Virus record (IMG/VR): IMGVR_UViG_3300043449_000712
Coordinates: 1-25,931 of that record
Direction: 5' to 3' (one strand)
DNA length: 25,931 nt
Origin: a virus
In this document: positions 6,220-25,931 of the stretch, one piece after another
Numbering within the stretch: position 1 is the stretch's first letter
How the letters are laid out: each line of letters opens with the position of its first letter
Translations under genes and position numbers: made by a program
The notes under the pieces: model-generated
Told to the model about the DNA's origin: nothing
Seen by the model: the letters and a program-made list of their open reading frames with translations, nothing else
Databases searched by the model: none

Positions 6220-9200
6220 TTATTTTATTTTAGCTTCAAGTGCCTCAACTCTTGCTAATAATTCTTTATTTGTTTGAATTAGTAATGCTACTAATTTTTC
6301 ATATTTAACGGCTTTGTATCCATTTTCTCTTGTTGTTACAACTTCAGGTAAAACCTTCTCAATTTCTTGTGCTATAACTCCAATGTCGTGACCTTCATTT
6401 TCGTGTACACCTTCCATTGGGACCCAATCAAAGTGATAACCATTTACTTGCTTTAATATATCTAAAGAACCTGAGATTGTCAACACATTTTCTTTTAATC
6501 TTTCATCAGAACTTGCGTATGCGATTACGTCGTTAGATGCTCTGATTAAACCGACAGTTGTTGACGTTGTAGCTCCACCGACAATTAACGCACCTGTTAC
6601 AGATGTTGTACCTGCGTTTAACGTAACACCTCCGTTGATAGTTAAACCTGCAAATGTTGGTGTTGCACTTGTATGAATGTTTTGAGGTGTTGATATTGTT
6701 ACACCACCTGTAGCGGCACTTACACTTACTTGGTTTGCCGTTCCCGCTAATGACGTTACACCCGTGTTTGTAACTGTAACTGCACCTGTTGCACTTACGT
6801 TTGAACTCAAACCAGTATTAGTTGTTAATGACGTTACACCCGTGTTTGTAATTGTTACACCACCCGTAGCAACATCTCTAGATATACCTGTTCCTGCACT
6901 AATTCCTGTTACACCCGTGTTTGTAACTGTAACTGCACCTGTTGCACTTACGTTTGAACTCAAACCAGTATTAGTTGTTAATGACGTTACACCTGCGTTG
7001 TTTAATGTTACAGATGAACCTAAAGCAACCGCTCCACCACCACTCAAACCTGTTCCCGCTGTTACAGTTACTGATGAATTCGCCAATTTACCATTCGCTA
7101 CGGATGTATTAACCAATTGAGATCCGTTGATTGTTTTGTTAGTAAGGGTTTGTCCTCCACTTACAGTAACAAGTTCCACTTCGGCACCCGCCAAACCAGC
7201 TTCCCATACATCTGTAGTTTCGTCCCATATTAAACTTGCGTTTGTAGATGTTCCTCTTCTAATTTCAATACCACCATTTTGTGATGGGGTACCTGTTTCG
7301 TCTGAATTAAGAACTAAAATATTATCCCCAATATTAACCGTATTCGAATTGACTGTTGTAGTTGTACCGTTTACAGTTAAATTACCCGCGATTGTAACAG
7401 TTGTACCATCATCTGTGATGGTTGAGTTACCAACTGTTGAAGCTGATGTAAATTTAACAAGAACATTGTTTGTTCCTGAAACACTTACTGAAGTTCCTGA
7501 AGTTCCTGAACTACCTGAAGTTCCTGAACTACCTGAAGTTCCTGAACTACCTGAAGTTCCTGAAGAACCACTAGTTCCACTTGACCCACTAGAACCTGAA
7601 GTTCCTGAAGAACCACTAGTTCCACTTGACCCACTAGAACCTGAAGTTCCTGAAGAACCATTTGAACCTGAACTTCCAGATGAACCACTTGTTCCTGACG
7701 AGCCACTAGAACCTGAAGTTCCCGATGTGCCACTTGATCCATTAGAACCTGATGAACCACTTGTACCAGCAGTTCCTGAAGAACCGCTAGAACCTGAAGT
7801 TCCTGAAGAACCATTAGAACCTGATGAACCACTTGAACCTGAGGTTCCTGAAGATCCACTAGAACCTGAAGTTCCTGATGTGCCAGCTGAACCGCTAGAA
7901 CCCGATGTGCCACTAGTTCCTGATGATCCGCTAGAACCTGAAGTACCACTAGAACCATTTGAACCTGATGAACCACTGGTTCCTGATGAACCGCTAGAAC
8001 CACTTGTACCTGACGTACCAGCACTTCCTGAGGAACCACTTGTACCTGAAGTACCACTAGTACCGCTTGAACCTGAACTACCTGATGTACCCGCCGTTCC
8101 TGATGAACCTGATGTTCCTGAAGAACCACTAGAACCTGATGAACCCGATGTACCACTAGTTCCTGAAGAACCACTAGAACCTGAAGTTCCTGATGTACCT
8201 GACGTTGCGGCCGTGTATGATGTTCCGTTAATATTTAAACTTGTTACTCTTAATGAACCTGTAACTTCCGTATTTGTACTAATTCTTACAGTTGTACCAT
8301 CGTCAGTAATATTACTATCACCAAGATGTTCTTGACCTAAAGATTTTATTACTTTATTAAGTGTTGGTAATGTTTCACCACCTAAGTTATTATATGTTTG
8401 AGCTCCTACTAAAACTACTGAAGATGTAACTGTTGATTGATTTGTGTGAACATAAAGAAACTGATTGTTTAATGAATCAAATAACATTGAACCCGAAACA
8501 GTTGGTGATGATCCACTATCAATTACAGATAAACCCGCAAATCTCACACTTGGTGATGACGCGTTAACTGTTATTATATTGTCCGCAACTCTTAATTGTG
8601 ATGCTGTAGTAAATGTGATTGATGATGAACCTAAAACTGTTAAGTTTTGTGTGATAGTTAATGAACCGGTTATTTGTTGATTACCATTAACTCTTAATAA
8701 AGAACCATCAAATGTTAAATTTGCCTCTGCAGTTGCATTTGGTGCCGAACCATTTAATGTTAATAATGCATTATCTGTAGTTCCTGCAATTGTAACTGTT
8801 CCTGAAGAACCTGATGAACCACTGGTTCCTGATGAACCTGAACTACCCGATGTGCCGGCAGTTCCACTTGAACCACTAGAACCTGATGTACCACTTGACC
8901 CACTTGTACCACTTGTACCTGCAGTTCCAGAAGTTCCCGATGAACCACTTGTACCAGCAGTTCCTGAAGAACCACTAGAACCTGATGTACCACTAGTTCC
9001 TGATGAACCTGAACTACCTGATGTACCAGCTGTTCCTGAAGATCCACTAGAACCCGATGTGCCACTAGTTCCTGAAGAACCACTAGAACCTGATGTACCT
9101 GATGTACCTGAAGAACCGCTAGAACCTGACGTACCGGCCGTTCCTGAAGATCCGTTAGAACCACTAGAACCTGACGTTCCTGAAGATCCACTAGAACCTG

Positions 9201-9741
9201 AAGTTCCACTAGTGCCACTTGAACCTGAACTACCTGAAGTTCCTGCAGTTCCTGATGAACCACTAGTACCTGAAGTGCCGGATGTTCCTGAAGAACCAGC
9301 GGCAGCTAACCAAGTTGTTCCATTGTATCTATATATGTTGTTATCTGTGGTATTGTAATATACCTGACCTGATACAGTACCTGTAGGGTTTGCCGACGAT
9401 TTCGGTAATTGTAATGACCCCGTTATATTAACAGAACCAGTGAAGTTATGAAAATCGTCAAACGTGTTACCAAATACGTGTGAACCACTTGCAAATGATT
9501 CTGTTACATAAAGAACAGAAGAACTTACAATGTAGGATTGTGCACTTATTGATCCTGTAATGACTACATTTCCATTTATTGTTTGGTTTCCGTTGAATGT
9601 GTTGGATCCCGTGGTTGCACCACCTCCGACACTACCTTCAATGTTCGCACGTAACGTACCTGTTACTGTTAAATCACCTGTTATTCTTGCGGAACCCGAT
9701 ACCATCAGGGAACCGGTTACGACTGGGTCAAATATATTCAT
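6220..9741 (-). CDS. Tail fibre/adhesin with Gly-X-Y repeats and S74 chaperone
   Basis: A 1,173-residue virion fibre, and the largest protein here. The N-terminal part (1-145) is beta-rich with repeated V-x-G-S/T-L/I units (GSLMVSGSARITGDLTVTGT), ending in VYYNTTDNNIYRYNGTTW, a frequent fibre element. Residues about 148-313 and 512-750 are Gly-X-Y tracts made almost only of GTS, GSS and GTA. Between and after them lie more beta-repeat segments, including a duplicated GLSSNVSATGAVTVTNTGVT unit. Residues 1078-1173 are a peptidase S74 intramolecular chaperone: SDERLK carries the Ser-x4-Lys pair (S1078, K1083) of the autocleavage dyad known from endosialidases, followed by IGVIAQEIEKVLPEVV and a terminal coiled coil. 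The chaperone should trimerise the fibre and then cut itself off. The upstream heptosyltransferase-like gene makes Ser/Thr glycosylation of the tracts plausible (inference). Confidence 0.93.
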   Translation of the reverse strand: MNIFDPVVTGSLMVSGSARITGDLTVTGTLRANIEGSVGGGATTGSNTFNGNQTINGNVVITGSISAQSYIVSSSVLYVTESFASGSHVFGNTFDDFHNFTGSVNITGSLQLPKSSANPTGTVSGQVYYNTTDNNIYRYNGTTWLAAAGSSGTSGTSGTSGSSGTAGTSGSSGSSGTSGTSGSSGSSGTSGSSGSNGSSGTAGTSGSSGSSGTSGTSGSSGSSGTSGTSGSSGSSGTAGTSGSSGSSGTSGTSGSSGSSGTAGTSGSSGTSGTAGTSGTSGSSGTSGSSGSSGTAGTSGSSGSSGTSGSSGSSGTVTIAGTTDNALLTLNGSAPNATAEANLTFDGSLLRVNGNQQITGSLTITQNLTVLGSSSITFTTASQLRVADNIITVNASSPSVRFAGLSVIDSGSSPTVSGSMLFDSLNNQFLYVHTNQSTVTSSVVLVGAQTYNNLGGETLPTLNKVIKSLGQEHLGDSNITDDGTTVRISTNTEVTGSLRVTSLNINGTSYTAATSGTSGTSGSSGSSGTSGTSGSSGSSGSSGTSGSSGTAGTSGSSGSSGTSGTSGTSGSSGSAGTSGTSGSSGSSGTSGSSGSNGSSGTSGSSGSSGTSGTSGSSGSAGTSGTSGSSGSSGTSGSSGSSGSNGSSGTSGSSGSSGTAGTSGSSGSNGSSGTSGTSGSSGSSGTSGSSGSSGSNGSSGTSGSSGSSGTSGSSGTSGSSGSSGTSGSSGTSGSSGTSGSSGTSGSSGTSGTSVSVSGTNNVLVKFTSASTVGNSTITDDGTTVTIAGNLTVNGTTTTVNSNTVNIGDNILVLNSDETGTPSQNGGIEIRRGTSTNASLIWDETTDVWEAGLAGAEVELVTVSGGQTLTNKTINGSQLVNTSVANGKLANSSVTVTAGTGLSGGGAVALGSSVTLNNAGVTSLTTNTGLSSNVSATGAVTVTNTGVTGISAGTGISRDVATGGVTITNTGVTSLTTNTGLSSNVSATGAVTVTNTGVTSLAGTANQVSVSAATGGVTISTPQNIHTSATPTFAGLTINGGVTLNAGTTSVTGALIVGGATTSTTVGLIRASNDVIAYASSDERLKENVLTISGSLDILKQVNGYHFDWVPMEGVHENEGHDIGVIAQEIEKVLPEVVTTRENGYKAVKYEKLVALLIQTNKELLARVEALEAKIK
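6755..6840. repeat. 86-bp direct repeat, copy 1
   Basis: This stretch is identical, base for base, to 6908-6993. The two copies start 153 nt apart, a multiple of three, so they encode the same peptide in the same frame of the fibre (the unit containing NTGLSSNVSATGAVTVTN). Perfect identity at the DNA level implies recent duplication or gene conversion. Confidence 0.9.
6908..6993. repeat. 86-bp direct repeat, copy 2
   Basis: Second copy of the repeat at 6755-6840, identical over 86 bp. A diverged third related segment (GTTACACCCGTGTTTGTAAT) starts at about 6834, overlapping the end of copy 1. Recombination between the two copies would remove or add 51 codons without shifting the frame. Confidence 0.9.
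7490..8206 (-). repeat. Gly-X-Y Ser/Thr repeat tract 2 of the fibre
   Basis: About 80 consecutive 9-nt units coding for GTS, GSS, GTA, GSN or GSA. Glycine occupies every third position, X is only Thr or Ser, Y is mostly Ser, and there is no proline. The DNA is degenerate at third positions rather than perfectly repeated, so the tract is maintained at the protein level. The periodic base composition also keeps the other reading frames open, which creates long spurious ORFs on both strands. Confidence 0.92.
8800..9299 (-). repeat. Gly-X-Y Ser/Thr repeat tract 1 of the fibre
   Basis: About 55 units of the same GTS/GSS/GTA type as the second tract, starting just after the fibre's N-terminal head region. 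It has a regular higher-order pattern in which GTAGTSGSSGSSGTSG-like blocks recur. It is separated from the other tract by about 200 residues of beta-repeat sequence. No proline is present. Confidence 0.92.
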
Positions 9742-15933: not shown

Positions 15934-15941
15934 TATTTATA
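15934..15941 (-). promoter_or_regulatory. Possible T4-type late promoter
   Basis: TATAAATA, the core of the T4 late promoter, reads leftwards here and overlaps the stop codon of the SGNH gene. It lies 51 nt before the start of the 906-residue fusion gene, in one of the few intergenic gaps of this strand. The octamer is easily met by chance in such AT-rich DNA, so confidence is low. Confidence 0.25.
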
Positions 15942-16599
15942 ATAATTTTTTACTGTCCATTAAGGAATAAAGGTAATGTGCAAAATCTAAATGTCCTTTG
16001 AAAGAGAAATGACCATCGTTTATTTTACCTTTAGTGTCATCTTTAATTTTATGAAATGTATTATATATTTTATCATCATCTTCTAATGACCACGTGTAAA
16101 AAAATTGTACTTTTTTATCTTTCTTGAGTCTATTCTCGATAAATTTAAATCTCTTCTTGTGTCTTTCTTTGTAAAATGGGTGATTTGAAAAATAATATTG
16201 GAAATTTAGTACCGCTTCAATTTTTTCTTTTTCTTTACTGTCATTACCGTCCCCAATTATTTTGATTGCATTTTCATAGGTTGACAAGACATTACGGGTA
16301 TAATCATCAAACGGAACCTCAATTCTACCGTGTAATGTCATGTTAACAATTACAACGTCCCCTTCGTTGATTTCATCATATTTTTCAATTATTGAATCAA
16401 ATATATAATCATTTGATGCTCCGTTCTTACCTAAATTTTTAACTTCGTAGTTCAATAATTTACCTAAATGATTTACCCAAACATCATCACCTTCTTTTTT
16501 ATATGGTAGATACTCTTCTTTAGTTTCCGACACACATAACTCATTACATCCGTGACCGAATGTCATTGAATCTCCAAATGTCCAAAGTGTGTTTTTCAT
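15937..16599 (-). CDS. SGNH/GDSL-like hydrolase
   Basis: A 220-residue SGNH-fold protein. Block I is LWTFGDSMTFGHG with the nucleophile Ser11. Gly60 and Asn63 in GKNGASNDY are the oxyanion residues of blocks II/III. NDGHFSFKGHLDFA at 194-207 supplies the Asp and His candidates of block V. Phage and bacterial proteins of this layout act as esterases or acyltransferases on carbohydrates. With FkbM and glycosyltransferase genes directly upstream, removal or transfer of acetyl groups on a glycan is the likely role (inference). No signal peptide is present, so it is cytoplasmic or part of the virion. It starts at an ATGA overlap with the FkbM gene, in the TTTAATATGA context shared by several genes of this strand. 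Confidence 0.82.
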   Translation of the reverse strand: MKNTLWTFGDSMTFGHGCNELCVSETKEEYLPYKKEGDDVWVNHLGKLLNYEVKNLGKNGASNDYIFDSIIEKYDEINEGDVVIVNMTLHGRIEVPFDDYTRNVLSTYENAIKIIGDGNDSKEKEKIEAVLNFQYYFSNHPFYKERHKKRFKFIENRLKKDKKVQFFYTWSLEDDDKIYNTFHKIKDDTKGKINDGHFSFKGHLDFAHYLYSLMDSKKLL

Positions 16600-17204
16600 A
16601 TTAAATTTATATAATTCTTATTAAAAAATTCAACGTTACCATCGTGATGGTGTTTATTAAGTTTATTGTTAATGTCTCTCCAATTACTTATTACAAAACC
16701 ATTATTTTTCAAAAAATCAACCACACTATGTAAGTCGTTGGTGACGTTTTTATATAATTCCTCACTAAAACTAACTTCAACCTTCCCCCTTTTTATTAAG
16801 GATAATTTATTTCCAAATGAATTTAATATTTTTAAATCATTTCCTTGTGCATCACAATGAAAATAATCAATCTCATCAATACCATTTTCATTTATAAATG
16901 TATCCATTCTTACAACATTAACATTTATCTGATTTTTAAATCTAACATTAGTATTGTTAATTGAGTAATCCGTTAGTTCGTTTAAAGATGATGACATTCC
17001 ATTGGTTGCAATATTAAATGATGAGGTTCCATTAAAATCGCTTACAGCCTTTTCTATTATCACCAAATTTTTATTATTAATAAATTTATCTTTTAATATT
17101 TTTATATTTGAGGGGTCAGGTTCAAAAGCCCACACCTTAGAATTTTTTAAGAATTCAAGTGTGTGTCCTCCATCGTTTGCACCAATTTCGATAATATTCA
17201 TCAT
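16596..17204 (-). CDS. FkbM family methyltransferase
   Basis: A 202-residue stand-alone FkbM methyltransferase. NIIEIGANDGGHTLEFL is SAM motif I, VWAFEPDPSNIKIL holds the acidic residue binding the ribose, VVRMDTFINENGIDEIDYFH and CDAQGNDLKILNSF match the V-D-x-x-G-x-E region of the family, and KRGKVEVSF is a late strand. FkbM enzymes methylate hydroxyl groups, often at glycan ends. It is distinct from the FkbM domain of the large fusion (about 180 residues of low similarity apart from the motifs). Two adjacent ATG codons at 17204 and 17201 overlap the upstream stop; either may be used. Confidence 0.87.
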   Translation of the reverse strand: MMNIIEIGANDGGHTLEFLKNSKVWAFEPDPSNIKILKDKFINNKNLVIIEKAVSDFNGTSSFNIATNGMSSSLNELTDYSINNTNVRFKNQINVNVVRMDTFINENGIDEIDYFHCDAQGNDLKILNSFGNKLSLIKRGKVEVSFSEELYKNVTNDLHSVVDFLKNNGFVISNWRDINNKLNKHHHDGNVEFFNKNYINLI

Positions 17205-17899
17205 AATAAAGTTTTATTTTTTATGAAACTACCAATCATATTCTTTTCCGCCATATGACAAATTCCATTAATGTTCAAATCGTCAAATGTCGGGTTTTTA
17301 TTATATAGATAATTTATATTATTAAAATATACATTTAAATATTGTTGATTCAAAGTGATTGGTGGTATATCATTATATCTTTTTGTGAAAAAATCATAAT
17401 TTAAATTAAGAATATTCAATACGTCCGAATATGTTTTATTAACATTAAGATAGTCGTTTGAGCCGATTATACAAGTGTTATTTAATTCGTTGAAATCTAA
17501 TGGTATGTCTGAATATCTTTTATATATTTCAGTAAAATGATTCGTTTGTTGTTCCGTTAGTGGGTGTTTATATCCTAAATTTAATCTGTCTTCCTTAATT
17601 ATGTTTCTTAATTTACTAAAATCATTTACAATTAAGTCATTATCTAAGTGTATAAACGGAAAATGTATTGTTGACAACACTTTTAATTTAGGATATGACC
17701 ATAGTGATGGTTTTTTATGTTTAATATCAATATCAAACCCCACCCAATCATAATTTAATTTAGTATTTTTAAAGTAATCCTTATCTGAATATATTATAGG
17801 GGTTATATTTTGAGCATTTAAATTTTCAATTGAATACTTTAAATAGATTTCAGTAACTTCTTTAAGTCTGATTGGTAAGTATGTAAAAACTACTTTCAT
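17201..17899 (-). CDS. Putative GT-A-like glycosyltransferase
   Basis: A 232-residue protein. The start MKVVFTYLPIRL, followed by a helix and ITPIIYSDKDYF, fits a nucleotide-sugar binding Rossmann-like half. SLWSYPKLKVLSTIHFPFIH leads directly into LDNDLIV, a DxD-type motif near residue 96. NNTCIIGSNDYLNVN and NGICHMAEKN near the end resemble the later acceptor and metal-ligand (His) positions of GT8/GT-A-like enzymes found in Bacteroidota and phages. The family name is not certain, but a metal-dependent glycosyltransferase is the best reading. It overlaps the upstream gene by 1 nt and the downstream gene by 4 nt. Confidence 0.65.
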   Translation of the reverse strand: MKVVFTYLPIRLKEVTEIYLKYSIENLNAQNITPIIYSDKDYFKNTKLNYDWVGFDIDIKHKKPSLWSYPKLKVLSTIHFPFIHLDNDLIVNDFSKLRNIIKEDRLNLGYKHPLTEQQTNHFTEIYKRYSDIPLDFNELNNTCIIGSNDYLNVNKTYSDVLNILNLNYDFFTKRYNDIPPITLNQQYLNVYFNNINYLYNKNPTFDDLNINGICHMAEKNMIGSFIKNKTLL

Positions 17900-19149
17900 T
17901 ATATTAAAGATTTATTGATTACAAATTCTGTCTTTAGTCCTTTGTCAATTATCAAATCCAATAATGAATTTTCATTTTCAATTTTGTACATCAACTTAAC
18001 ATGAACTAAATCCGACCATTCTTTACACAGTTTATAATTTTCATCAAAATTCTGTAAAAACTTGTCCACAAATTCAGCAAACAATTTACTATTGGTTCTA
18101 CATCTTTTTGATTCATTATAAAATGGGTGAGGTGGTACATTCAACATTCTCTCAATTATTTGTAATGGATAATCGTGTGTTGATATAAATGGGATACCTG
18201 ATAATAACAAACCAAAGGTTTTTTCTGAAAGATATTGTGATGTGAATTCTTTATTACTCCACGACCAACTTTCACATAATATCTGCATTTTAGCTTTAGG
18301 TAGGACTCTAAAAAAGAGATCCATATATCCTTGGTGATTAGATATATAACTTATGTCATCAAAATCAACATTTCCGTAAAGTGAATTTGTGTGTATATGA
18401 GATATTTTTGGTGAGTTTTTTTCATACGATGGATTTTTTAGTGCGTCCGTGTGTTGTAGATACAATCTATCGTTCTTTAATTTACTTAACTCATTTAGAA
18501 TCTCAACTCTATTAGATTTGTGATTTTTGATGGTGTACATCAAATCATAATCAAAGTGTAACCTATCATAAACTTGTTTAAATTCATAATACCATCGTAT
18601 GCTCCAATTATGATTCCATTGGAATATTGTATTAGTTAAAGTATAATAAAAGTTTGGGTGTAGGGATTTTATCGATTCATTTAAAAATACATTGTCCGTA
18701 ATAATATGATGACTTTTTAATTTATCAATTAAAGACTCAATCTCAATCCATTTTTCGTCAATGTAATTAACATCTCTTGTCTGTAATATTTTTTCGGTTC
18801 TCAAATATGTTATTAACCATTTTTGATTATCGGGACAGTCCTTCAAAAGGTTTATGAAAATTTTAAAAACTTGCTGGGTTTCTCGTTCCATATAATCTCG
18901 GTCAGGTAAAATGTGTCCAATTTTTGAATCGTTATCTCCGTAAAAAAATGCGGTAAAATAGTCTAATATGTGATATCCATCATCTTCAAAACTAATTTCT
19001 TTTTTAAATACAAATTCAATATCGACATTTCTGTATTTACATAAAATATTACCTTCACCATTATCAATAAAATATTCCCTATCGGTTGTGTTGTGCCCCA
19101 ACGTATAGAATATTTGTTTTTGGTATGGATGGTGAACATAAATTTTCAT
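17899..19149 (-). CDS. Putative GT-B-like glycosyltransferase
   Basis: A 416-residue protein whose family I cannot name with certainty. The C-terminal part contains SQYLSEKTFGLLLSGIPFIS near 309-328. This resembles the S/T-E-K-T-(x)n-G-x-P-F-I signature of the donor-binding half of GT-B enzymes such as fucosyltransferases and related phage proteins. The N-terminal 250 residues are rich in aromatic residues and His (MKIYVHHPYQ; NTIFQWNHNWSIRWYYEF) and show no clear motif. It starts with TAATG-independent spacing, 3 nt after the sulfotransferase stop, and ends in the TTAATATAATG junction. A transferase acting on the same glycan as its neighbours is likely (inference). Confidence 0.6.
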   Translation of the reverse strand: MKIYVHHPYQKQIFYTLGHNTTDREYFIDNGEGNILCKYRNVDIEFVFKKEISFEDDGYHILDYFTAFFYGDNDSKIGHILPDRDYMERETQQVFKIFINLLKDCPDNQKWLITYLRTEKILQTRDVNYIDEKWIEIESLIDKLKSHHIITDNVFLNESIKSLHPNFYYTLTNTIFQWNHNWSIRWYYEFKQVYDRLHFDYDLMYTIKNHKSNRVEILNELSKLKNDRLYLQHTDALKNPSYEKNSPKISHIHTNSLYGNVDFDDISYISNHQGYMDLFFRVLPKAKMQILCESWSWSNKEFTSQYLSEKTFGLLLSGIPFISTHDYPLQIIERMLNVPPHPFYNESKRCRTNSKLFAEFVDKFLQNFDENYKLCKEWSDLVHVKLMYKIENENSLLDLIIDKGLKTEFVINKSLI

Positions 19150-19152
19150 AAA

Positions 19153-19650
19153 TTAAATTAATTTTTTAATAAAATTTTCTTTATCTCCAATTCGTAACCT
19201 ACCATCTCCACTTGGATTAAATAAATCTTCATAGTATAAGATAGGTACATTAAGTTGTGATGATAATTTTTCCATATCATCCGTCCATTTTAATATGTCA
19301 TTATAACACAACTCAAATACATCTTTAGGTGTCTCTTCATACACATATGGATTATTTGAATGGTAGTTTTTTGTCTTTGAGAAGTGAGTTTGATATGCAT
19401 GTGATTCCGCACACTCTTTTAAATTTTTTCTTGATAATAATATAACATCGTCGAATTCTTTGCTTAATTCTAAATTATTGGGGTGATGACATATTATTGT
19501 TTTAACAACTATATCTTTTTCGTTACTATATTGAACTCTGTCTGTGTTGTCAAATGGTTCGAATAATGGTTTAAGATTTTTTTCTTTGGCAATTTTATAA
19601 AGTAAAGAAGTTGATCCTGTCCTTGGTAATGCAATTATTAATATACTCAT
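19153..19650 (-). CDS. PAPS-dependent sulfotransferase-like protein
   Basis: A 165-residue protein. SILIIALPRTGSTSLLYKIA at 2-21 is the 5'-phosphosulfate binding loop of sulfotransferases (strand, P-R-T-G-S-T-S, helix). VILLSRKNLKECAESH at 69-84 matches the 3'-phosphate binding strand and helix, with Arg and Ser as PAPS ligands. The protein is shorter than most sulfotransferases (about 250-300 residues), so it may be a minimal form; no disruption is visible. It should move sulfate from PAPS to a hydroxyl, here probably on a sugar or protein residue. It sits between a 2OG oxygenase and a glycosyltransferase-like gene with a 4-nt overlap upstream. Confidence 0.8.
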   Translation of the reverse strand: MSILIIALPRTGSTSLLYKIAKEKNLKPLFEPFDNTDRVQYSNEKDIVVKTIICHHPNNLELSKEFDDVILLSRKNLKECAESHAYQTHFSKTKNYHSNNPYVYEETPKDVFELCYNDILKWTDDMEKLSSQLNVPILYYEDLFNPSGDGRLRIGDKENFIKKLI

Positions 19651-20213
19651 ATTAAAGTACTATTTACCTTTACTTTTGGATAATTAAAATCAGTTTCGGT
19701 CATCCAAATATTTAAAGCGTAACGTGTTCCGTTTGTTACAGGTAACACTCCGTGATATGTTGTTGATCCATTAAATGATATACTATCGCCTAATTTTAAA
19801 TCGCAAATAGTTAATCCATCTAATGTTTCAAAATGAAATGGTGGATTATCATCTTCGGTTAAAACAAATTGCCCCCCTTCAAAATTATCCGATAGGACAA
19901 TAACTGTTGTTAATTCACTTGATTTATCTTTATGTAAATTAAGATATCTACCATCATAATATGATGTCAAACTAATATTAAAATTTTTTAGATTGAAGGT
20001 GGTGTAATCAAACCATAATTTAAAATCTCCGTTTTTATAATTGGTCGTAAGTAGTTCAATTATTTTCTTTTTAAATTCAGAATCGTACATCCTCCTACAA
20101 TCCCAACTTTCCGTTGGTTTGTATGAAAACGGTTCCCCAAATTCAAGACAAAAATCAATTATGTTTTTAGCCTCTTCCTTGTTACAAAAATTATTATTTA
20201 TGTTATAATTCAT
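19647..20213 (-). CDS. 2OG-Fe(II) oxygenase, prolyl-hydroxylase-like
   Basis: A 188-residue double-stranded beta-helix dioxygenase. The iron ligands are visible: His94 and Asp96 in RYLNLHKDKSSELTTVIVL, and His154 in TTYHGVLPVTNGTRYALNIW. Arg164 binds the 2-oxoglutarate carboxylate. The FEGGQFVL segment between them is the typical E-G-G-x-F/L turn of the P4H-like class. It should hydroxylate an amino-acid side chain or small molecule using O2 and 2-oxoglutarate. It overlaps the sulfotransferase gene, so hydroxylation followed by sulfation of the same molecule is possible (inference). A second enzyme of the same class is at 23869-24438 and is not especially similar outside the motifs. Confidence 0.9.
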   Translation of the reverse strand: MNYNINNNFCNKEEAKNIIDFCLEFGEPFSYKPTESWDCRRMYDSEFKKKIIELLTTNYKNGDFKLWFDYTTFNLKNFNISLTSYYDGRYLNLHKDKSSELTTVIVLSDNFEGGQFVLTEDDNPPFHFETLDGLTICDLKLGDSISFNGSTTYHGVLPVTNGTRYALNIWMTETDFNYPKVKVNSTLI

Positions 20214-21031
20214 AACAAATACGAATTTTTTGGTTTACTATGTGTTAATAAATTACCCTGACTTATAAATTTATATAACTCATCCGCAATCAATTTATAC
20301 CCATCACTACTTGGGTGTTTACCCGCGGTGGAGTCAACCCAATGGTTGTTGTCTTCCCACACATCTTTTCTATTTGTGTCGATTAATAAATTAGCCATTG
20401 TTTTACTTCTATAACCCCAATACCTATTATCATCAATCAAATTAGTTTTGTCAACTAAAACATCAATATTTTTATTAATCATAGTGTCAAACGCATCACA
20501 AAAAACATATCTAATTCCCAATTCTTTAAAGATAAATTGTAAGTGTAGAATGTAATTTTGATTAATTATATCATAGTACGTGTCATTAAACAAATTACTA
20601 ATATAGTAATCCCTAAAATTTTTTTCTGCCCTATTATAGTTCACATTATCCCCATTAACACCATCAAAAATATATTTGAAAAGATGTTGTTTACTTTTAT
20701 ATCGCTGACCCCAAATGTGAAAATTATTCTCATTTGGAAAGAATGGTAATTGATCTCTTAATGAGGAGGACCACATAATAACAACAAAATCGTCTTGAGT
20801 GACGATTTCATTTTTTAATTGATAACAAATTGAATTGAATATTGCATTGTTAGAAAATGCTCCTACTCCATTATTTTTTACTTCACATTCAAGTAGTTCG
20901 GATAAGTATTTTGGCCAACAATATTTTTGTCTTATGTTAGTTCTTTCTTCAGGAATTTCTGTTGTTAATTCTTCCTTAACATTGCCCCCAACACCTTCAG
21001 TCCAACTATCTCCATATGTAAATAACTTCAT
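20210..21031 (-). CDS. SGNH/GDSL-like hydrolase
   Basis: A 273-residue SGNH protein. MKLFTYGDSWTEGVGG holds the nucleophile Ser9. GVGAFSNNAIFNS supplies the Gly and Asn oxyanion residues near 57-62. FVVIMWSSSLRDQLPF is the third conserved strand, and His239 in KHPSSDGYKLIADEL is the catalytic His, with Asp in the same block. It belongs to the same broad family as the protein at 15937-16599 but is longer and not a close copy. An esterase or acyltransferase role on a glycan or modified protein is likely. The start codon follows the 47-residue ORF by 11 nt. It overlaps the downstream oxygenase gene by 4 nt. Confidence 0.82.
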   Translation of the reverse strand: MKLFTYGDSWTEGVGGNVKEELTTEIPEERTNIRQKYCWPKYLSELLECEVKNNGVGAFSNNAIFNSICYQLKNEIVTQDDFVVIMWSSSLRDQLPFFPNENNFHIWGQRYKSKQHLFKYIFDGVNGDNVNYNRAEKNFRDYYISNLFNDTYYDIINQNYILHLQFIFKELGIRYVFCDAFDTMINKNIDVLVDKTNLIDDNRYWGYRSKTMANLLIDTNRKDVWEDNNHWVDSTAGKHPSSDGYKLIADELYKFISQGNLLTHSKPKNSYLL

Positions 21032-21042
21032 AAAACATTGTC

Positions 21043-21186
21043 TTATTCTCCCAAGTGTTTAACCTTAATTGCCGTTACAACCGCTTGAAATGCTGTTGCC
21101 ACTTTTGTTTTTAATTCACTTGAAATTGGTGCAACAATTGCTTTGATTGTTTGTGCCGGTCTTTCTATTCTTTCTTTTACTGCCAT
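21043..21186 (-). CDS. 47-residue protein of unknown function
   Basis: An ORF of 48 codons with a stop. The protein begins MAVKERIERPAQTIKAIVAP and ends TAIKVKHLGE; it is Ala/Val/Lys-rich with alternating basic and hydrophobic residues, likely an amphipathic helix. It lies in line with its neighbours, 27 nt after the Hint-protein stop and 11 nt before the SGNH start, and would otherwise leave an unexplained 180-nt gap in an otherwise gap-free strand. No Shine-Dalgarno site is visible; the leader is an (AAAAT)n repeat. Function unknown. It could be a small virion or regulatory protein. Confidence 0.55.
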   Translation of the reverse strand: MAVKERIERPAQTIKAIVAPISSELKTKVATAFQAVVTAIKVKHLGE

Positions 21187-21195
21187 GGTATTTTT

Positions 21196-21215
21196 ATTTT
21201 ATTTTATTTTATTTT
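21196..21215. repeat. (ATTTT)4 pentanucleotide repeat
   Basis: Four perfect tandem ATTTT units (AAAAT on the coding strand), extended by one imperfect unit, fill the gap between the Hint-protein stop and the start of the 47-residue ORF. Such tracts can slip during replication and can act as A-rich translation enhancers. Confidence 0.85.
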
Positions 21216-22704
21216 AAAGTTTTGGTATTGGGGTGTTACTACAACCTGGGCAATACCAACTATTACACCAGTGACCACAATAGTTCCAAGGACACCAACA
21301 AGTGTTGTGCATCACACTAAAATCACCATCACCAATATCTACTAAGAACAAATCTGAAGGTTCAAAATCTAAACTATAGATAGTTTTTTGAGCGTGTGCC
21401 ATTTCCAAACCTGTAATAGTAACCGTGGTTAATTCATTTGTGTTTGCATCAGTAACAATTAATTTGTCCCCAACATACATTTTATTTACTTTTTCAAACC
21501 TTGTTGCGGTTGAACCTGATTCCTCAATGTAGTAAACACAAGATGGTGCATCTGTCCAAGTTCTACCATCTTCCAATGTTATTTTTATATATATGGTATC
21601 AACTTGAGATGAAACCATATGTTGTAGGGTTGAACCTGTCTGTATTAACGTATCATTAGATTGTTGTAGTGTACTATCCCAACCAAATGTGTTTATTTTA
21701 TTTTCTTCAAATTTTGCACCATGATTATCATTAAAATCGACAAAATCTATACTACGGACTAAATCACCTATTTGAATAGTGTTCACATCTTCCAATGTAC
21801 CATTGAATTTTAATATAACACTATCGTCGTCGGTGTGATAATCATTCTTTAAGAAATTACCTAATTCCTTAGTAATGTATTTGTATCTACTTTTTTGATT
21901 TAGTTTTTTGGTTCCACTAACAAATTCATCATCGCAAAATGACAACGGTATGATTGTTGATTGTGTGTATCCTCCCATGTTAATCACATCCAAATTTAAT
22001 CCGTATATGATGTCGATACTTCTTATAATTGAATACCTACCTTCTACTAAATTATCTTCTGAAAATATGAATTCTTGAACTAAATGATTTGATTCTAACC
22101 CATCTTTTAAAGTGGTTAACTCTAAACCATTTGAAACCCTGTGTAATTCGGGATATGTTAAAACATCATAACTTGGGAATCTAGCTTTAATCAATGTGTT
22201 TGGTGTTGTTGTGGTTTCATAATCAACCGCATCCAACGTATTTAAAGATAAACCATCCGATGTGAAGTAAGTTTTTGGAGTGTAATTTGATTCACTCATC
22301 AAAGAAAAAAACTCAAATTTGTCAGCACAATACGTTTCATCCACTAAAGCTGTGGTGTCGAATGCTTGTCTTAAAATAAATTTATGTGATGCATCCTCCA
22401 CATATGGTACCGTAACTGACCCAACTGGAACCATATAATCGGTAAATGTGATGTTATTTTCAACACATTTTTCCTCTAATATTTTCTTAAATCTATACTG
22501 TTCTGTTAGAGGTTTGTAAGCGTCTCCCTCTGTCCATATAAAATGAAATTCAGTGATGTTATTGGTATTTAACACATTAAATAATGACGTATAATCCAAT
22601 AAATCCGCACCCTCATTGTAAATGGTGGTGTTTGTGTTTATTTCCAAAAATTTAACAGAATTCTCTGTTTGTAGTAAATCGCTCCCTATTATTGTTGCTT
22701 TCAT
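21214..22704 (-). CDS. ATP-grasp-like protein with Hint domain and Cys/Trp-rich tail
   Basis: A 496-residue protein with three parts. Residues 1-285 resemble an ATP-grasp type fold: MKATIIGSDLLQTENSVKFL, NTLIKARFPSYD, then HLVQEFIFSEDNLVEGRYSI; this is tentative. Residues about 290-467 look like a Hint domain: VILKFNGTLEDVNTIQIGDLV (block A region), ITLEDGRTWTDAP, KMYVGDKLIV, TIYSLDFEPSDLFLVD (block F) and FSVMHN at 462-467 (block G, His-Asn). No Cys is at the expected first position, and the block-B His appears replaced (TDAPS), although TLQH occurs earlier. Splicing ability is therefore uncertain, while C-terminal cleavage at Asn467 could persist. Residues 468-496 begin with Thr and hold six Cys and four Trp (TCWCPWNYCGHWCNSWYCPG). 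There is no homing endonuclease. Splicing or cleavage would join or release this tail. Confidence 0.6.
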   Translation of the reverse strand: MKATIIGSDLLQTENSVKFLEINTNTTIYNEGADLLDYTSLFNVLNTNNITEFHFIWTEGDAYKPLTEQYRFKKILEEKCVENNITFTDYMVPVGSVTVPYVEDASHKFILRQAFDTTALVDETYCADKFEFFSLMSESNYTPKTYFTSDGLSLNTLDAVDYETTTTPNTLIKARFPSYDVLTYPELHRVSNGLELTTLKDGLESNHLVQEFIFSEDNLVEGRYSIIRSIDIIYGLNLDVINMGGYTQSTIIPLSFCDDEFVSGTKKLNQKSRYKYITKELGNFLKNDYHTDDDSVILKFNGTLEDVNTIQIGDLVRSIDFVDFNDNHGAKFEENKINTFGWDSTLQQSNDTLIQTGSTLQHMVSSQVDTIYIKITLEDGRTWTDAPSCVYYIEESGSTATRFEKVNKMYVGDKLIVTDANTNELTTVTITGLEMAHAQKTIYSLDFEPSDLFLVDIGDGDFSVMHNTCWCPWNYCGHWCNSWYCPGCSNTPIPKL

Positions 22705-22740
22705 ATAAGTTTTTATTCTTGTTTATAAATATAAATATAA

Positions 22741-22797
22741 CGATTAGAAAATCGATAATAAAGTATTAAAAAAATATATACGTATATATTTAATCAT
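22741..22797 (-). other. Intergenic segment with palindrome, hairpin and 17-codon ORF
   Basis: This part of the 89-nt gap at 22705-22793 separates the halogenase-side genes from the Hint gene. It holds a perfect 20-bp palindrome (22772-22791, AAATATATACGTATATATTT) followed on the - strand by more T, which looks like a weak intrinsic terminator. A 5-bp hairpin CGATT/AATCG with a 4-nt loop follows at 22741-22754. A 17-codon ORF (MIKYIRIYFFNTLLSIF) starts at 22797 by overlapping the stop of the preceding gene in the same way the large genes do; it is probably a remnant or chance. The rest, 22705-22740, is A/T-rich leader with two TATTTATA octamers 19 nt or more before the Hint start. Confidence 0.45.
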
Positions 22798-23081
22798 ATC
22801 AATGTATTAGAATTTTTATCGATTATCGGTTCCAAATATTTTGAATCTACATCTAACCATTTTTTTTGTGTGCAAGGATTAAAATTTTTAGAAAATACTT
22901 TCTTATTTAAGGGGCATCCGCAATCACCGCAATAAGCCGACCATTTGATTCCTTTTAAAACTTCTTTTCTATAAGTGCAACCTAAACAAACATCTAATCT
23001 TTTTTGCGCCAATTCCTCCTGTGTTGGTGTTGGGTTAAACGATGATTTCCAAGCGTCAAATATTTCTTTATAATCAATCAT
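22794..23081 (-). CDS. Small zinc-ribbon-like protein
   Basis: A 95-residue protein with six cysteines arranged as Cys32-x2-Cys35, Cys51-x2-Cys54-x-Cys56 and Cys70. The surrounding pattern AQKRLDVCLGCTYRKE, YCGDCGCPLNKKVF and NPCTQKKW is that of small phage proteins with R-x-x-x-C-x-x-C and C-x-x-C-G-C-P-L followed by a C-x-x-x-K-W element. They are presumed to bind zinc or iron and have no assigned role in the knowledge available to me. The start overlaps the sulfotransferase stop (ATGA). Position within the halogenase-oxygenase block suggests an accessory to it (inference). Confidence 0.75.
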   Translation of the reverse strand: MIDYKEIFDAWKSSFNPTPTQEELAQKRLDVCLGCTYRKEVLKGIKWSAYCGDCGCPLNKKVFSKNFNPCTQKKWLDVDSKYLEPIIDKNSNTLI

Positions 23082-23869
23082 ATTAAAGTTTTTTGTAATT
23101 TGGGGAAATCGTAATAATCGTAAACACTATCGTATTTTTTTATAAAATCATCATTTAGCATTATTTTACATTCCATATGTTTGCTTGAATTGACTGAATG
23201 TAGTGTAAATGGTTTTTGTAATTTTTTAGAAACCCATTCCTCTAATTTATTTAATTCATTAAAATTGAACCAAATGATATTCTGATCATTATTAGTCCAA
23301 TTTGATAATGGGGTCAATAAAATATCTATCATATTGATGGCGTATCCTTTAGTATTTGTTTTAAAATATTCTTCATCTGATTTCCTGAACTTTGATGTGA
23401 CAGAAATGTCTATCTTTTTATCTAACAATTTCAAATCTATTAGATATTCACATATTTTATCCCATCTTTGTTTTTTAGTTGCTACATCATCTTTACTGAA
23501 GAAAAACAATTCGTCTAACGTTAAATTTGAAAATTTTTCATATATTTTTTCGTATCCCATTCTTTTTAAATCAAACAATATATGTTTATATAAAGAATAG
23601 AATCTATCATGTCTCTCTCTTTTTACTGCAATGATTGGATAATTATTACCAAATTTAACTTGTAAATCTATCAGAGATTCATGTCCGTGATAGATGTGAT
23701 TCATTAATTCTTTCTTATCTATTGATTTAAAATCGATATCAGAATTTGACAATTCCCAATCACCATTATGTGTTTGAACATTAACATCATTAACTAAGCA
23801 AGAATAGTGAAATGCTGTAGATGCACACCTTGGTAAACTTAAATAAAAAAATTTATCATCTACTAACAT
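23078..23869 (-). CDS. PAPS-dependent sulfotransferase
   Basis: A 263-residue sulfotransferase, of normal length for the family. FFYLSLPRCASTAFHYSCL (residues 7-25) is the phosphosulfate loop, and YPIIAVKRERHDRFYSLYKH (77-96) is the 3'-phosphate binding strand and helix with Arg and Ser. The start at 23869 (MLVDDKFFYL) is preferred to an ATG 36 nt further upstream. It forms the same TTAATATAATG overlap with the preceding stop that other genes here use, and the family fold begins right after it. It should sulfate a hydroxyl on a sugar, protein or small molecule. It sits between a 2OG oxygenase and the zinc-ribbon gene. Confidence 0.85.
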   Translation of the reverse strand: MLVDDKFFYLSLPRCASTAFHYSCLVNDVNVQTHNGDWELSNSDIDFKSIDKKELMNHIYHGHESLIDLQVKFGNNYPIIAVKRERHDRFYSLYKHILFDLKRMGYEKIYEKFSNLTLDELFFFSKDDVATKKQRWDKICEYLIDLKLLDKKIDISVTSKFRKSDEEYFKTNTKGYAINMIDILLTPLSNWTNNDQNIIWFNFNELNKLEEWVSKKLQKPFTLHSVNSSKHMECKIMLNDDFIKKYDSVYDYYDFPKLQKTLI

Positions 23870-24438
23870 TATATTAAGGATTTTTTTATTAATTTGGATG
23901 GCCACACATTTATTGAATAACGTAATCCATTTGTTATGGTGTTTACCGAATGTAGTAGATTTGAATCGAATATAAACACACTACCTTGTTTTTTATTAAC
24001 TGTATGTTCAATCTCATTGATTGAATATTTCACCTCTCCTCCATCATAATTATCATTAAGTTGAATAACAAATGTAATTGTTGCACCGTTTAGTATTTCG
24101 TGATTATCAGGATGCCAATCTAAAAAATCTCCCTCACCGTATCTATTAAAAGAATATTTGGGGACTCCATTATATATAATTCCATTATAAGGGTTTAATT
24201 CGTTTGATAAACTAATTATTTTATTAGTTATAGTTTTTAATATCGGTAAGTCTAATAATTCATCGGTAAAATAGGATCCCATTCGTTTATTACCTTTGTA
24301 TTCCAAATTTTCAGATATGAGTTTACCATTAACAAAATATGAAGATTTCATTTGTATTAACTCAGTTGAGTTACCTAAATCGATAATAGATTTACATTCC
24401 TCTTCAGTTAAAAAATTTTCAATGTATTTGGTGAACAT
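23869..24438 (-). CDS. 2OG-Fe(II) oxygenase, prolyl-hydroxylase-like
   Basis: A 189-residue dioxygenase. His109 and Asp111 in GDFLDWHPDNHEILNGATI, with distal His163 in SNLLHSVNTITNGLRYSINV, bind iron. Arg173 binds 2-oxoglutarate. YDGGEVKYSI is the usual G-G turn between them. All four catalytic residues are present and spacing is normal for the P4H-like class, so the enzyme should be active. The acceptor is unknown. It has the same layout as the oxygenase at 19647-20213. It overlaps both neighbours by 1 nt in TTAATATAATG contexts, so it is likely made together with the halogenase and sulfotransferase. Confidence 0.92.
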   Translation of the reverse strand: MFTKYIENFLTEEECKSIIDLGNSTELIQMKSSYFVNGKLISENLEYKGNKRMGSYFTDELLDLPILKTITNKIISLSNELNPYNGIIYNGVPKYSFNRYGEGDFLDWHPDNHEILNGATITFVIQLNDNYDGGEVKYSINEIEHTVNKKQGSVFIFDSNLLHSVNTITNGLRYSINVWPSKLIKKSLI

Positions 24439-25091
24439 TATATTAATGATTTTTCTTTTTTTATGAAATCAAACCCAACGTTACCCGCCATAACAATTCT
24501 ATCTACTGTCGAATTGGGTGCGTTATTCGGTGAATGTGGCATATCACCTTCCATAATTATTAAATCATCTTCTTCAGGTCTAATCCAGTATTCCTTTTTA
24601 TTTTTACCTCTGAAATATATAACACCATCTTCACCGTTCATCACATCTGGCATTTGTATGTAATAGACATAAGTATAATGAGGAAAAAATGATTTCATTT
24701 CTTTATTTATATCAGTATGTGTGTGAAATTTATCAATACCCCTTAAATCTTCGTGTTGAAATTGTATTTGTACGGGATTTTTTGACCTAACAACATTAAT
24801 CCAAGCGTCAGTATTGATTTTGTTATAGATTGTATTTGTCTCTTCATAAAGTTTTTTACAAGAATCTATTCCTATTTGTACTATCTCATCTAATTTTGAT
24901 TCGATATTGACTTCACCTAAATAATTCAAATTTTGATTCCATTCTTTTTTATAACCAAACCCATCCGTTTTAATGTGTGGTTGTGATTCGATTACCGAAT
25001 AAGCTTCTTTTAAGAAAGATGCTTTATCGCCTAATTTATTTAATTTAGTTTTCCATAAAAAGGTTGTTTCGTCAAAATATAATTTTTCCAT
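24438..25091 (-). CDS. 2OG-Fe(II) oxygenase-like protein
   Basis: A 217-residue protein of the putative 2OG-Fe(II) oxygenase class common in marine phages. FHTHTDINKE gives His125 and Asp127, EGDMPHSPNNAPNS gives distal His186, and Arg198 in VDRIVMAGNVGF is the 2-oxoglutarate ligand. YTYVYYIQMPDVMNGEDGVI is the conserved strand region with its acidic turn. The start at 25091 (MEKLYFDETTF) is preferred to the ATG at 25109: it lies right after the halogenase stop in the TAATATG context and avoids a 17-nt overlap. Five extra residues would precede it otherwise. Oxidation of the halogenase product or of a separate amino acid is possible (inference). Confidence 0.87.
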   Translation of the reverse strand: MEKLYFDETTFLWKTKLNKLGDKASFLKEAYSVIESQPHIKTDGFGYKKEWNQNLNYLGEVNIESKLDEIVQIGIDSCKKLYEETNTIYNKINTDAWINVVRSKNPVQIQFQHEDLRGIDKFHTHTDINKEMKSFFPHYTYVYYIQMPDVMNGEDGVIYFRGKNKKEYWIRPEEDDLIIMEGDMPHSPNNAPNSTVDRIVMAGNVGFDFIKKEKSLI

Positions 25092-25092
25092 A

Positions 25093-25931
25093 TTACAATA
25101 ATTGTACATTTGTTGCCCTTTTATTTTTATTAAAAATTAGGGAATAACTATATACCCCAAATATGATTGTCTCGAGAGTAATTTCTTTTAAATCCAATTC
25201 TTTTATAATTTCAGGATTAGTCTTTAAAAACATAAAATTATTAGAGTCTAAAATATTTTTTAATTTTTCAGGTATTGGCATAGAAAAAGATTTTCTCCAA
25301 AACGGAGTATCAAATCTCTCACACAAATAATGATACCTTACAAAACACATATTTTGTTCCATTATGTTTTTACAGAATTCATTGTACGAATCACTATGAT
25401 TTTCATCAAAATTAATATCCATTAATTTTTTTAATTGCATAATTGTTGTCATTAGTGATGTTGCCTCTATTGGTTCTAAAAATCCATACGATAAACCAAT
25501 AGATATGCTATTACCTACCCAAGATCTTTCAAATCTACCAGGATTAAATTCAAACACCTTTTGGATTGTAATTTCACTTCCAACGTATTCCTCAACCTCT
25601 TTTTTTGCATCCTCAATACTTATGAATGAATCGTTAAACACATAACCACATCCCCATCTATGTTGTAATGGAATTTGCCACATCCATCCTGAATTCATTG
25701 AAACTAATTCTGTATGTGTATTATCTGTAAACTCAAATTGTTTGTTCTGAGGTAAGAAATAACCTATGGCTTTATTTAATGAAAGATATTCAGAATAACT
25801 TACCCATTTCTCATTAAAAACTTTTCCGTTTACAATTCGAGCAAATCCACTGCAATCAAATACAAAATCAATTTCATTAATTTCATTACTATTTTTTAAT
25901 TTTATAGTGTGTATTTTATTATTGATTTCTT
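25093..25931 (-). CDS. Flavin-dependent tryptophan halogenase, 5' end outside window
   Basis: This is the C-terminal 278 residues of a flavin-dependent halogenase, cut at the window edge. The ATG at 25698 is internal; the frame stays open to the last codon and encodes FDCSGFARIVNG, the conserved D-C-x-G-F-x-R segment. SGWMWQIPLQHRWGCGYVF carries the W-x-W-x-I-P motif that separates halogenases from monooxygenases. FNPGRFERSWVGNSISIGLS and GFLEPIEATSLM match the substrate- and flavin-contacting region. The GxGxxG nucleotide loop and the catalytic Lys lie outside the window. Viral members include VirX1 of cyanophage Syn10, shown to halogenate with a preference for iodide. Substrate here is unknown. 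The gene leads a unit that continues into oxygenase and sulfotransferase genes. Confidence 0.93.
   Translation of the reverse strand, partial: EINNKIHTIKLKNSNEINEIDFVFDCSGFARIVNGKVFNEKWVSYSEYLSLNKAIGYFLPQNKQFEFTDNTHTELVSMNSGWMWQIPLQHRWGCGYVFNDSFISIEDAKKEVEEYVGSEITIQKVFEFNPGRFERSWVGNSISIGLSYGFLEPIEATSLMTTIMQLKKLMDINFDENHSDSYNEFCKNIMEQNMCFVRYHYLCERFDTPFWRKSFSMPIPEKLKNILDSNNFMFLKTNPEIIKELDLKEITLETIIFGVYSYSLIFNKNKRATNVQLL

Follow-up and report, generated by a model that had tools for sequence, protein, structure and literature searches.

The stretch of DNA analysed here (the window; 25,931 bases, positions 1–25,931 of IMG/VR record IMGVR_UViG_3300043449_000712) carries on its minus strand a run of mostly overlapping genes, one of which encodes a protein of 496 amino acids (Table 1). 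The open reading frame (ORF) claimed in an earlier note on this DNA was confirmed, as was the composition of its end, where the 29 residues after His466-Asn467 comprise six Cys, four Trp and two Tyr. The protein combines a glutathionylspermidine-synthetase-like ATP-grasp domain, a Hint domain that would be one-sided and a probably stapled mini-peptide rich in Cys, Trp and Tyr, and would be expressed late; the genes around it encode putative modifying enzymes that nearly all share a C-terminal tag. IMG/VR was scanned for stretches encoding relatives of the protein, which gave 111, 188, 212 and then 228 stretches; out of up to 228 stretches, 77 loci and later 80 distinct places were used for analysis, alignments held 42 to 54 family members, and tail statistics were compiled for 68 distinct tails among the 80 places.

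The Hint fold proposed in the earlier note was confirmed by structure comparison. Model residues 286–470 matched intein, Hedgehog and bacterial intein-like (BIL) domain structures, with the best VIA-align score to intein 4o1r (Z 15.6, root mean square deviation 2.1, 139 residues), and in many VIA-align rows intein residue 1 fell on model residue 290 and the final Asn on residue 467. Position 1, at which Cys or Ser is expected, was occupied by His290, which was invariant in 54 sequences; by regular expression it was found in 79 of 80 places, and the missed one (L050) also reads Tyr-His. H466, N467, C469, C471, C476, C485 and C488 were likewise invariant in 54 sequences, and the C-terminal His-Asn was present in 79/79 places showing the 3′ end of the gene, the 80th being cut off earlier by its contig. 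In an alignment with two other phage Hint proteins the block-B His was absent (W383-x-D385-A386); by alignment the family lacks the block-B Thr-x-x-His of class 1 inteins, and it does not keep to their Cys/Ser/Thr at +1 (S 35, G 11, T 8, P 6, A 5, Q 2 and N 1 in the 68 distinct tails); with His290, it also lacks the thioester-forming N-terminal Cys of type A BILs. With His at position 1 and no His left in block B, the N-side acyl shift is predicted to be gone; the domain would be one-sided, with cleavage on the C side through Asn467 as the chemistry that may remain. On the same grounds neither splicing nor N-side cleavage is expected, and the splicing at His-Asn that the earlier note had considered, like two-sided cleavage, was discarded. 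Sections of PMC4031507 describe type A BILs with a His-Asn in which Asn cyclisation cleaves the C side, and some inteins in which block-F and penultimate His are dispensable; a section of PMC7664689 describes the active-site residues of these domains as variable. The phage domain shares with type A BILs and inteins the fold (Z about 15), the C-terminal His-Asn and a +1 residue that is not an obligate nucleophile, and differs from them in its invariant His at position 1, the missing block-B His and the Cys/Trp peptide at the C side. Two further Hint proteins of related phages were noticed at L219:1121-1624 and L193:5852-7513, with Cys at position 1, a block-B His and the motif SEDHKH or THP. 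Both align with the window Hint domain; one of the two genes stands beside a gene resembling a tail sheath gene, and one of the two proteins is a 167-amino-acid protein among PTPTPT-repeat proteins.

Six Cys were counted in 64 of the distinct tails, eight in three and nine in one. In tails with eight or nine Cys the gains fall at the identical two places (CWCC...CxxCC), and these tails lie in two separate parts of the tree, namely L073, which has a six-Cys sister, and L178/L182/L184 (support 89); two independent gains of a Cys pair are likely on this tree, though not certain. Gain at the same two places in two lineages suggests Cys paired by disulfide or metal, and the tail is probably stapled in one of these ways. 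The tail ends were often rich in Gly and Pro and mostly finished in Lys and one further, usually aliphatic, residue. All 64 IMG/VR stretches that matched the DNA pattern of the tail carried it directly after the Hint His-Asn; with its conserved Cys pattern and this constant position, the tail is not a chance feature as judged from the sequences. Six-frame scanning of pieces of G026, G028, L193 and L219 yielded low-complexity reverse reads only and no such tail on another protein.

For the N-terminal part, an AlphaFold2 (AF2) model of residues 1–289 alone reached a predicted local distance difference test score (pLDDT) of 87 (full-length model, 69.6). VIA-align gave Z 9.9 to yeast glutathione synthetase (GSS) and Escherichia coli YgiC over 216–231 residues, with a top 27 rows consisting of the GSS/GSP_synth kind or ligase Cp1B, which supports the ATP-grasp assignment of the earlier note; this Z lies above, though not overwhelmingly, the 7–8 given by the tool as typical for models with no clear match. 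The top Foldseek matches were glutathione-synthetase-type ATP-grasp proteins at modest E values (best 1.8e-3). D9, E21 and N23 (candidate Mg ligands), K173 and Q210-E211-F212 were invariant in a 53-row alignment. By structural offset, D9...E21-x-N23-T-N matches the position of the R-x-D...E-x-N-A-D segment of YgiC/GspS, and profile comparison (hhalign) chose the same D...E-x-N register, at P 0.22 (not significant); judging from alignment and model, the Mg site is likely to be intact. That an intein interrupts the ATP-grasp domain, whose Mg motif had seemed cut off, was considered and dropped because the N-terminal model aligns from residue 1 with GSS/GSP_synth proteins, in which the D...E-x-N comes early in the aligned part. 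Pfam RimK matched 9/53 members weakly (best E 0.023, below the curated cut-off), and a viral structure library gave no match to the N-terminal model at E < 0.001. The protein resembles GSP_synth/glutathione synthetase enzymes (YgiC, GspS, eukaryotic GSS) in fold, over residues 1–281, and probably, by structural offset, in the place of the D...E-x-N motif, but differs from them in its low identity (~15%), in having no Pfam match above cut-off and in its fusion to a Hint domain and tail.

Nothing meaningful matched the 496-amino-acid protein among Pfam, PHROG, NCBIfam or PADLOC models; in the domain check suggested in the earlier note, both folds stand by structure. No match was obtained by tblastn against 50,697 GenBank phage records, and two pattern-limited scans of GTDB genome contigs yielded no bacterial relatives; a scan using a single divergent family member returned only that member and one fragment. 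At the sensitivity used, the family is present in IMG/VR and not in isolate phages or bacterial genomes. No paper joining Hint domain, ATP-grasp and phage was found in the open-access literature.

The earlier note did not mention the tag, which unrelated cassette enzymes have in common in the window (15937–25931) and at other loci. Nearly all of them end in K-x-x-K-[ST]-[LI]-[IL]-COOH, also written K-x-x-K-[ST]-L-I; across 508 proteins of the tagged families, K was found at −7 in 54% and at −4 in 56%, T/S at −3 in 63%, and L/I at −2 and at −1 in 97% each. The carriers are flavin halogenase, 2-oxoglutarate (2OG) oxygenases, sulfotransferase-like proteins, SGNH proteins, FkbM methyltransferase and a radical S-adenosylmethionine (SAM) protein (E 4.2e-6, narrowly missing the curated cut-off). 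Counted over distinct proteins, two aliphatic residues end 128/129 members of the 2OG family C0, 67/67 of C2, 53/54 zinc-ribbon proteins, 51/53 of C5, 59/59 of C6, 48/54 SGNH proteins, 44/44 halogenases, 17/17 of C11, 15/16 of the radical SAM family C13, 14/14 of C14 and 8/8 of C25. The corresponding counts were 0/33 (C9), 0/34 (C10), 0/24 (C12), 0/7 (C15) and 1/12 (C17) in neighbouring non-cassette families, and 7/12 (C18), 4/9 (C26) and 3/9 (C27) in mixed ones. By gene position (proteins of at least 80 amino acids on the same strand; loci not thinned for relatedness), tagged proteins numbered 73/73, 72/72, 67/67, 62/64, 51/60, 29/47 and 9/38 going upstream of the Hint gene, and 60/72, 68/70, 57/61, 46/57, 28/47, 17/43 and 7/34 going downstream. 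The Hint protein (0/76) and a 47-amino-acid peptide encoded directly after it (0/50) were untagged. Among ORFs of at least 60 amino acids in G026, 11/11 in the cassette were tagged against 12/173 others; in G028 the numbers were 14/14 and 22/331 (Fisher p about 1e-15). Neither list includes the Hint gene, which a piece boundary interrupts in G026 as in G028.

Genes with no ATG near the stop kept the tag ends in 76/76 cases with varying synonymous codons (Ile as ATT 37, ATA 26, ATC 4), which largely rules out a by-product of a DNA start motif; coupled genes were tagged in 428/439 cases, with ATA preferred as last codon (262/428). Phe, Asn, Lys and Tyr, which AT-rich DNA would lead one to expect, were rare at the last two positions. 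The tag is selected at the protein level and is largely confined to the cassette, and its presence on nearly all cassette enzymes indicates that they behave as one module. Of 12 proteins near the halogenases of phages HTVC008M and P-SSM2 (two halogenases, six 2OG proteins, four others), none ends in K-[ST]-L-I, and the last two positions are both aliphatic in two (a 2OG protein, YKIV; a tail-fibre-assembly protein, PPLI). A search for a PDZ partner with PF17820 and PF13180, the one kind of partner searched for, gave no match in seven phage records (both matched in 14/14 control genomes), and nothing on shared C-terminal tags in phages was found in the open-access literature. Tagged genes were also seen outside the cassette in G026 (75452–84321, 122485 and 149315), including a weak radical SAM match and SGNH-like proteins; this is perhaps a second tailoring site.

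Of the neighbours named in the earlier note, the Trp halogenase (175 bits to PF04820 against a cut-off of 21), one clear 2OG oxygenase and a Cys-rich zinc-ribbon-like protein were recovered; the second 2OG match was weak, and the proposed sulfotransferase had a P-loop but no sulfotransferase match. The name sulfotransferase-like is taken mainly from the P-loop, because Pfam gave weak sulfotransferase matches for only four of ten such proteins tried and none for the window C2 protein. Relatives of the weaker oxygenase-like protein start at a Met at 25091. No family was found for the 47-amino-acid peptide, which ends KHL(S/G/GE). The cassette is conserved around the tail gene: among the loci that extend 5 kb or more before it and 4 kb or more after it (33 in all), zinc-ribbon, sulfotransferase-like and C5 2OG proteins and the 47-amino-acid peptide were encoded in 33/33, a halogenase in 27/33 and a C0-type 2OG protein before the gene in 31/33. 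In 41 loci with at least 4.6 kb upstream, a zinc-ribbon protein was found in 39 (none in L063 and L123) and a halogenase in 33. The window also encodes glycosyltransferase-like proteins (named by eye). Encoded at 6220–9741 is a 1173-amino-acid protein, tail-fibre-like by eye, which carries long GTSGSSG repeats. Its C-terminal region presumably resembles an intramolecular chaperone, and the protein may be another target of tailoring enzymes.

Table 1. Features of the window, in order of position, with the basis of each assignment
Feature	Positions	Strand	Basis
Second SGNH/GDSL-like protein, ends KKLL, last gene of tagged run	15937..16599	-	Sequence
FkbM-type methyltransferase, ends INLI	16596..17204	-	PF05050 9.5e-16
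232-aa protein, ends KTLL	17201..17899	-	Relative matches DUF6734 weakly
416-aa protein, function unassigned, ends KSLI	17899..19149	-	Sequence
Sulfotransferase-like P-loop protein (LPRTGST), ends KKLI	19153..19650	-	P-loop
2OG-Fe(II) oxygenase, ends STLI	19647..20213	-	PF13640 2.4e-9
SGNH/GDSL-like protein, ends SYLL	20210..21031	-	Sequence, Pfam
47-aa basic peptide MAVKERIERP...KHLGE, directly after Hint gene	21043..21186	-	68/77 loci, alignment
ATP-grasp-Hint-tail gene, 496 aa	21214..22704	-	Translation; in run of mostly overlapping genes
29-residue Cys/Trp/Tyr-rich tail TCWCPWNYCGHWCNSWYCPGCSNTPIPKL	21217..21303	-	Translation; 68 distinct tails
Hint domain, residues 290-467	21304..21837	-	VIA-align, alignments; H290, W383-x-D385-A386, H466-N467
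ATP-grasp-like domain, residues 1-289	21838..22704	-	AF2 model, VIA-align, invariant residues
ATATTTATA, two overlapping copies, late-promoter-like, upstream of Hint gene	22724..22738	-	Motif comparison
95-aa Cys-rich zinc-ribbon-like protein, ends NTLI	22794..23081	-	Family in 70/77 loci
Sulfotransferase-like P-loop protein (LPRCAST), ends KTLI	23078..23869	-	Family in 73/77 loci
2OG-Fe(II) oxygenase, ends KSLI	23869..24438	-	PF13640 5.8e-14
2OG-Fe(II) oxygenase-like, ends KSLI	24438..25109	-	PF13640 0.0014, PHROG 274 4.9e-7
Trp halogenase, cut by window edge, ends VQLL	25093..25931	-	PF04820 2.7e-51

Of 40 loci shown, most have before their Hint gene a motif similar to that of the window. 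In G028, ATATTTAT[AC] precedes the Hint gene and the first cassette gene at a distance of 19–21 bases from the ATG; it stands about 20 bases before the ATG of many genes there, several of them large and resembling structural ones. As G026 has no exact copy listed before its Hint gene, the motif is a possible rather than an established late promoter element of this phage group.

Pairing of halogenase and tail in other phages, a check suggested in the earlier note, was common but dispensable: in 65 loci of known status a halogenase was present in 52 and missing in 13, with four changes on the tree (five of the 13 are judged from flanks of 3.5–3.9 kb, three of these having identical proteins). 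Whole-record search found PF04820 in 19 of 32 chosen records, within about 5 kb of the Hint gene where coordinates were compared; the 13 records with no match (7 to 93 kb) may be fragments. Since the 13 halogenase-less loci have Trp-rich tails, the tail is not proven to be a halogenase substrate. A link between halogenase and the number of Trp in the tail was rejected (mean 3 per tail with and 3 without halogenase in 39 loci, no association on the tree). A link to the tail Pro (CWCP) was rejected too: raw counts were 30/33 halogenase-bearing loci and 1/8 loci with none, but only two independent pairs supported it, and L160, which has a halogenase and no Cys-Pro in its tail, and the CWCC tails break the pattern. 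VirX1 is a viral halogenase. Related halogenases were found in 84 records of the phage collection in which the Hint protein has no match, among them cyanophages and a pelagiphage. The phage Trp halogenases of PHROG 2928 (cyanophages, pelagiphage HTVC008M) are of the same family and likewise stand beside 2OG oxygenases; those of HTVC008M and P-SSM2 differ in lacking the C-terminal tag and in having no Hint or ATP-grasp gene annotated nearby. The open-access literature yielded no paper joining phage halogenase with sulfotransferase, oxygenase and collagen-like protein; PMC10858898 concerns a brominase of ribosomally synthesised and post-translationally modified peptides (RiPPs).

As a whole, the module resembles an assembly line, not described before, on which a peptide or protein would be modified. 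Our tentative preference, which we regard as possible rather than probable, is for a late tailoring module of large uncultured phages in which the tag brings the enzymes together on a single late substrate and the Hint domain releases or presents the stapled peptide through Asn467, the peptide itself being that substrate. The tag would dock the enzymes on a common partner or substrate. Asn467 would cyclise and release a peptide of 25–33 residues, and loss of the N-side chemistry would leave the ATP-grasp-Hint part intact. Given its Cys pairs, Trp, Tyr and Pro, the peptide would be the likeliest shared substrate of the oxygenases, the halogenase and the sulfotransferase-like enzymes, and the system would work like a ribosomal-peptide pathway with the core at the C-terminus of an enzyme. 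In an unlikely version, the assembly line would be addressed by C-termini: the ATP-grasp domain would recognise or ligate K-x-x-K-[ST]-L-I ends, and the Hint domain would free the stapled, cassette-modified peptide. Beside this stand an ATP-grasp of a kind that activates peptide carboxylates and the protein's own tail, which ends mostly in Lys and an aliphatic residue.

Several observations weigh against a released and modified peptide. Most RiPP cores are far less conserved than this tail, which in the window has no Asp or Glu for graspetide-type crosslinks. Tails stay Trp-rich where the halogenase is absent, and isolate phages have related halogenases beside 2OG genes with no Hint protein found. 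The block-F His, which helps Asn cyclisation in many inteins, is Asp in the window family (and in the L193 protein), and the +1 residue is sometimes Pro.

Nearly as likely is a non-cleaving scaffold: the Hint domain would be kept only as a fold, the tail would be a never-released stapled binding module on a scaffold or virion-associated ligase, and the tagged enzymes would modify virion proteins or glycans. The lost N-side chemistry and the gain of Cys in pairs suit such a module, as do the late-promoter-like motif, the tail-fibre-like and glycosyltransferase genes nearby and the position of isolate-phage halogenase and 2OG genes among structural genes. His-Asn kept in every place showing the gene end is, however, hard to explain if the Asn chemistry is never used, and the end of the tail is variable in length, Gly/Pro-rich and linker-like. 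An improbable alternative is that small molecules or host metabolites are the substrates of the halogenase and oxygenases, which would adjoin the Hint gene through shared late expression only; the loci with unchanged tail Trp and no halogenase, and the many phage records with the halogenase and no Hint match, would fit this, but the common tag ties the enzymes into one module and the halogenase lies close to the Hint gene in the 19 records that have it. We consider it equally doubtful that the shared C-terminus marks proteins for packaging (as capsid cargo) or for degradation (as a protease signal) instead of docking them for peptide tailoring: hydrophobic C-termini are known protease signals, the late-promoter-like motif agrees with this reading and tagged genes occur elsewhere in G026, yet the tag is concentrated in the tailoring cassette and is missing from the Hint protein and the 47-amino-acid peptide. 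It is highly improbable that the shared ends reflect a translational-coupling motif in the DNA (TTTAATATGA where stop and start overlap), for although most cassette genes have such overlaps, often with a last ATA, the uncoupled genes keep their ends in varying codons and the residues expected from AT-rich DNA are scarce there.

The tailoring module with a releasable peptide has two known counterparts in part. In borosins the core peptide lies at the C-terminus of its own modifying methyltransferase; the phage protein resembles them in that an enzyme carries a core-like peptide at its end and has tailoring genes alongside, and differs in having an ATP-grasp domain in place of the methyltransferase, a Hint domain in between and a strongly conserved peptide whose modification is predicted only. 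Conopeptides are Cys-rich peptides with bromo-Trp, hydroxy-Pro and sulfo-Tyr; the phage tail likewise combines a Cys pattern with Trp, Pro and Tyr, and has candidate enzymes of matching kinds beside it, but is of phage origin, shows no secretion signal, and has enzymes whose roles are predicted only.

If this reading is right, phages would run ribosomal-peptide-like tailoring with built-in release and a common enzyme address, a system absent from the family libraries used. It would define a new class of Hint domain, one-sided and with His at position 1, would give phage halogenases and 2OG oxygenases, which are widespread but orphan, a testable target, and may provide a short tag by which enzymes could be brought to one place. 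On the rival explanations too, an abundant family of uncultured phages has a new protein architecture and a cassette-wide C-terminal tag that calls for explanation.

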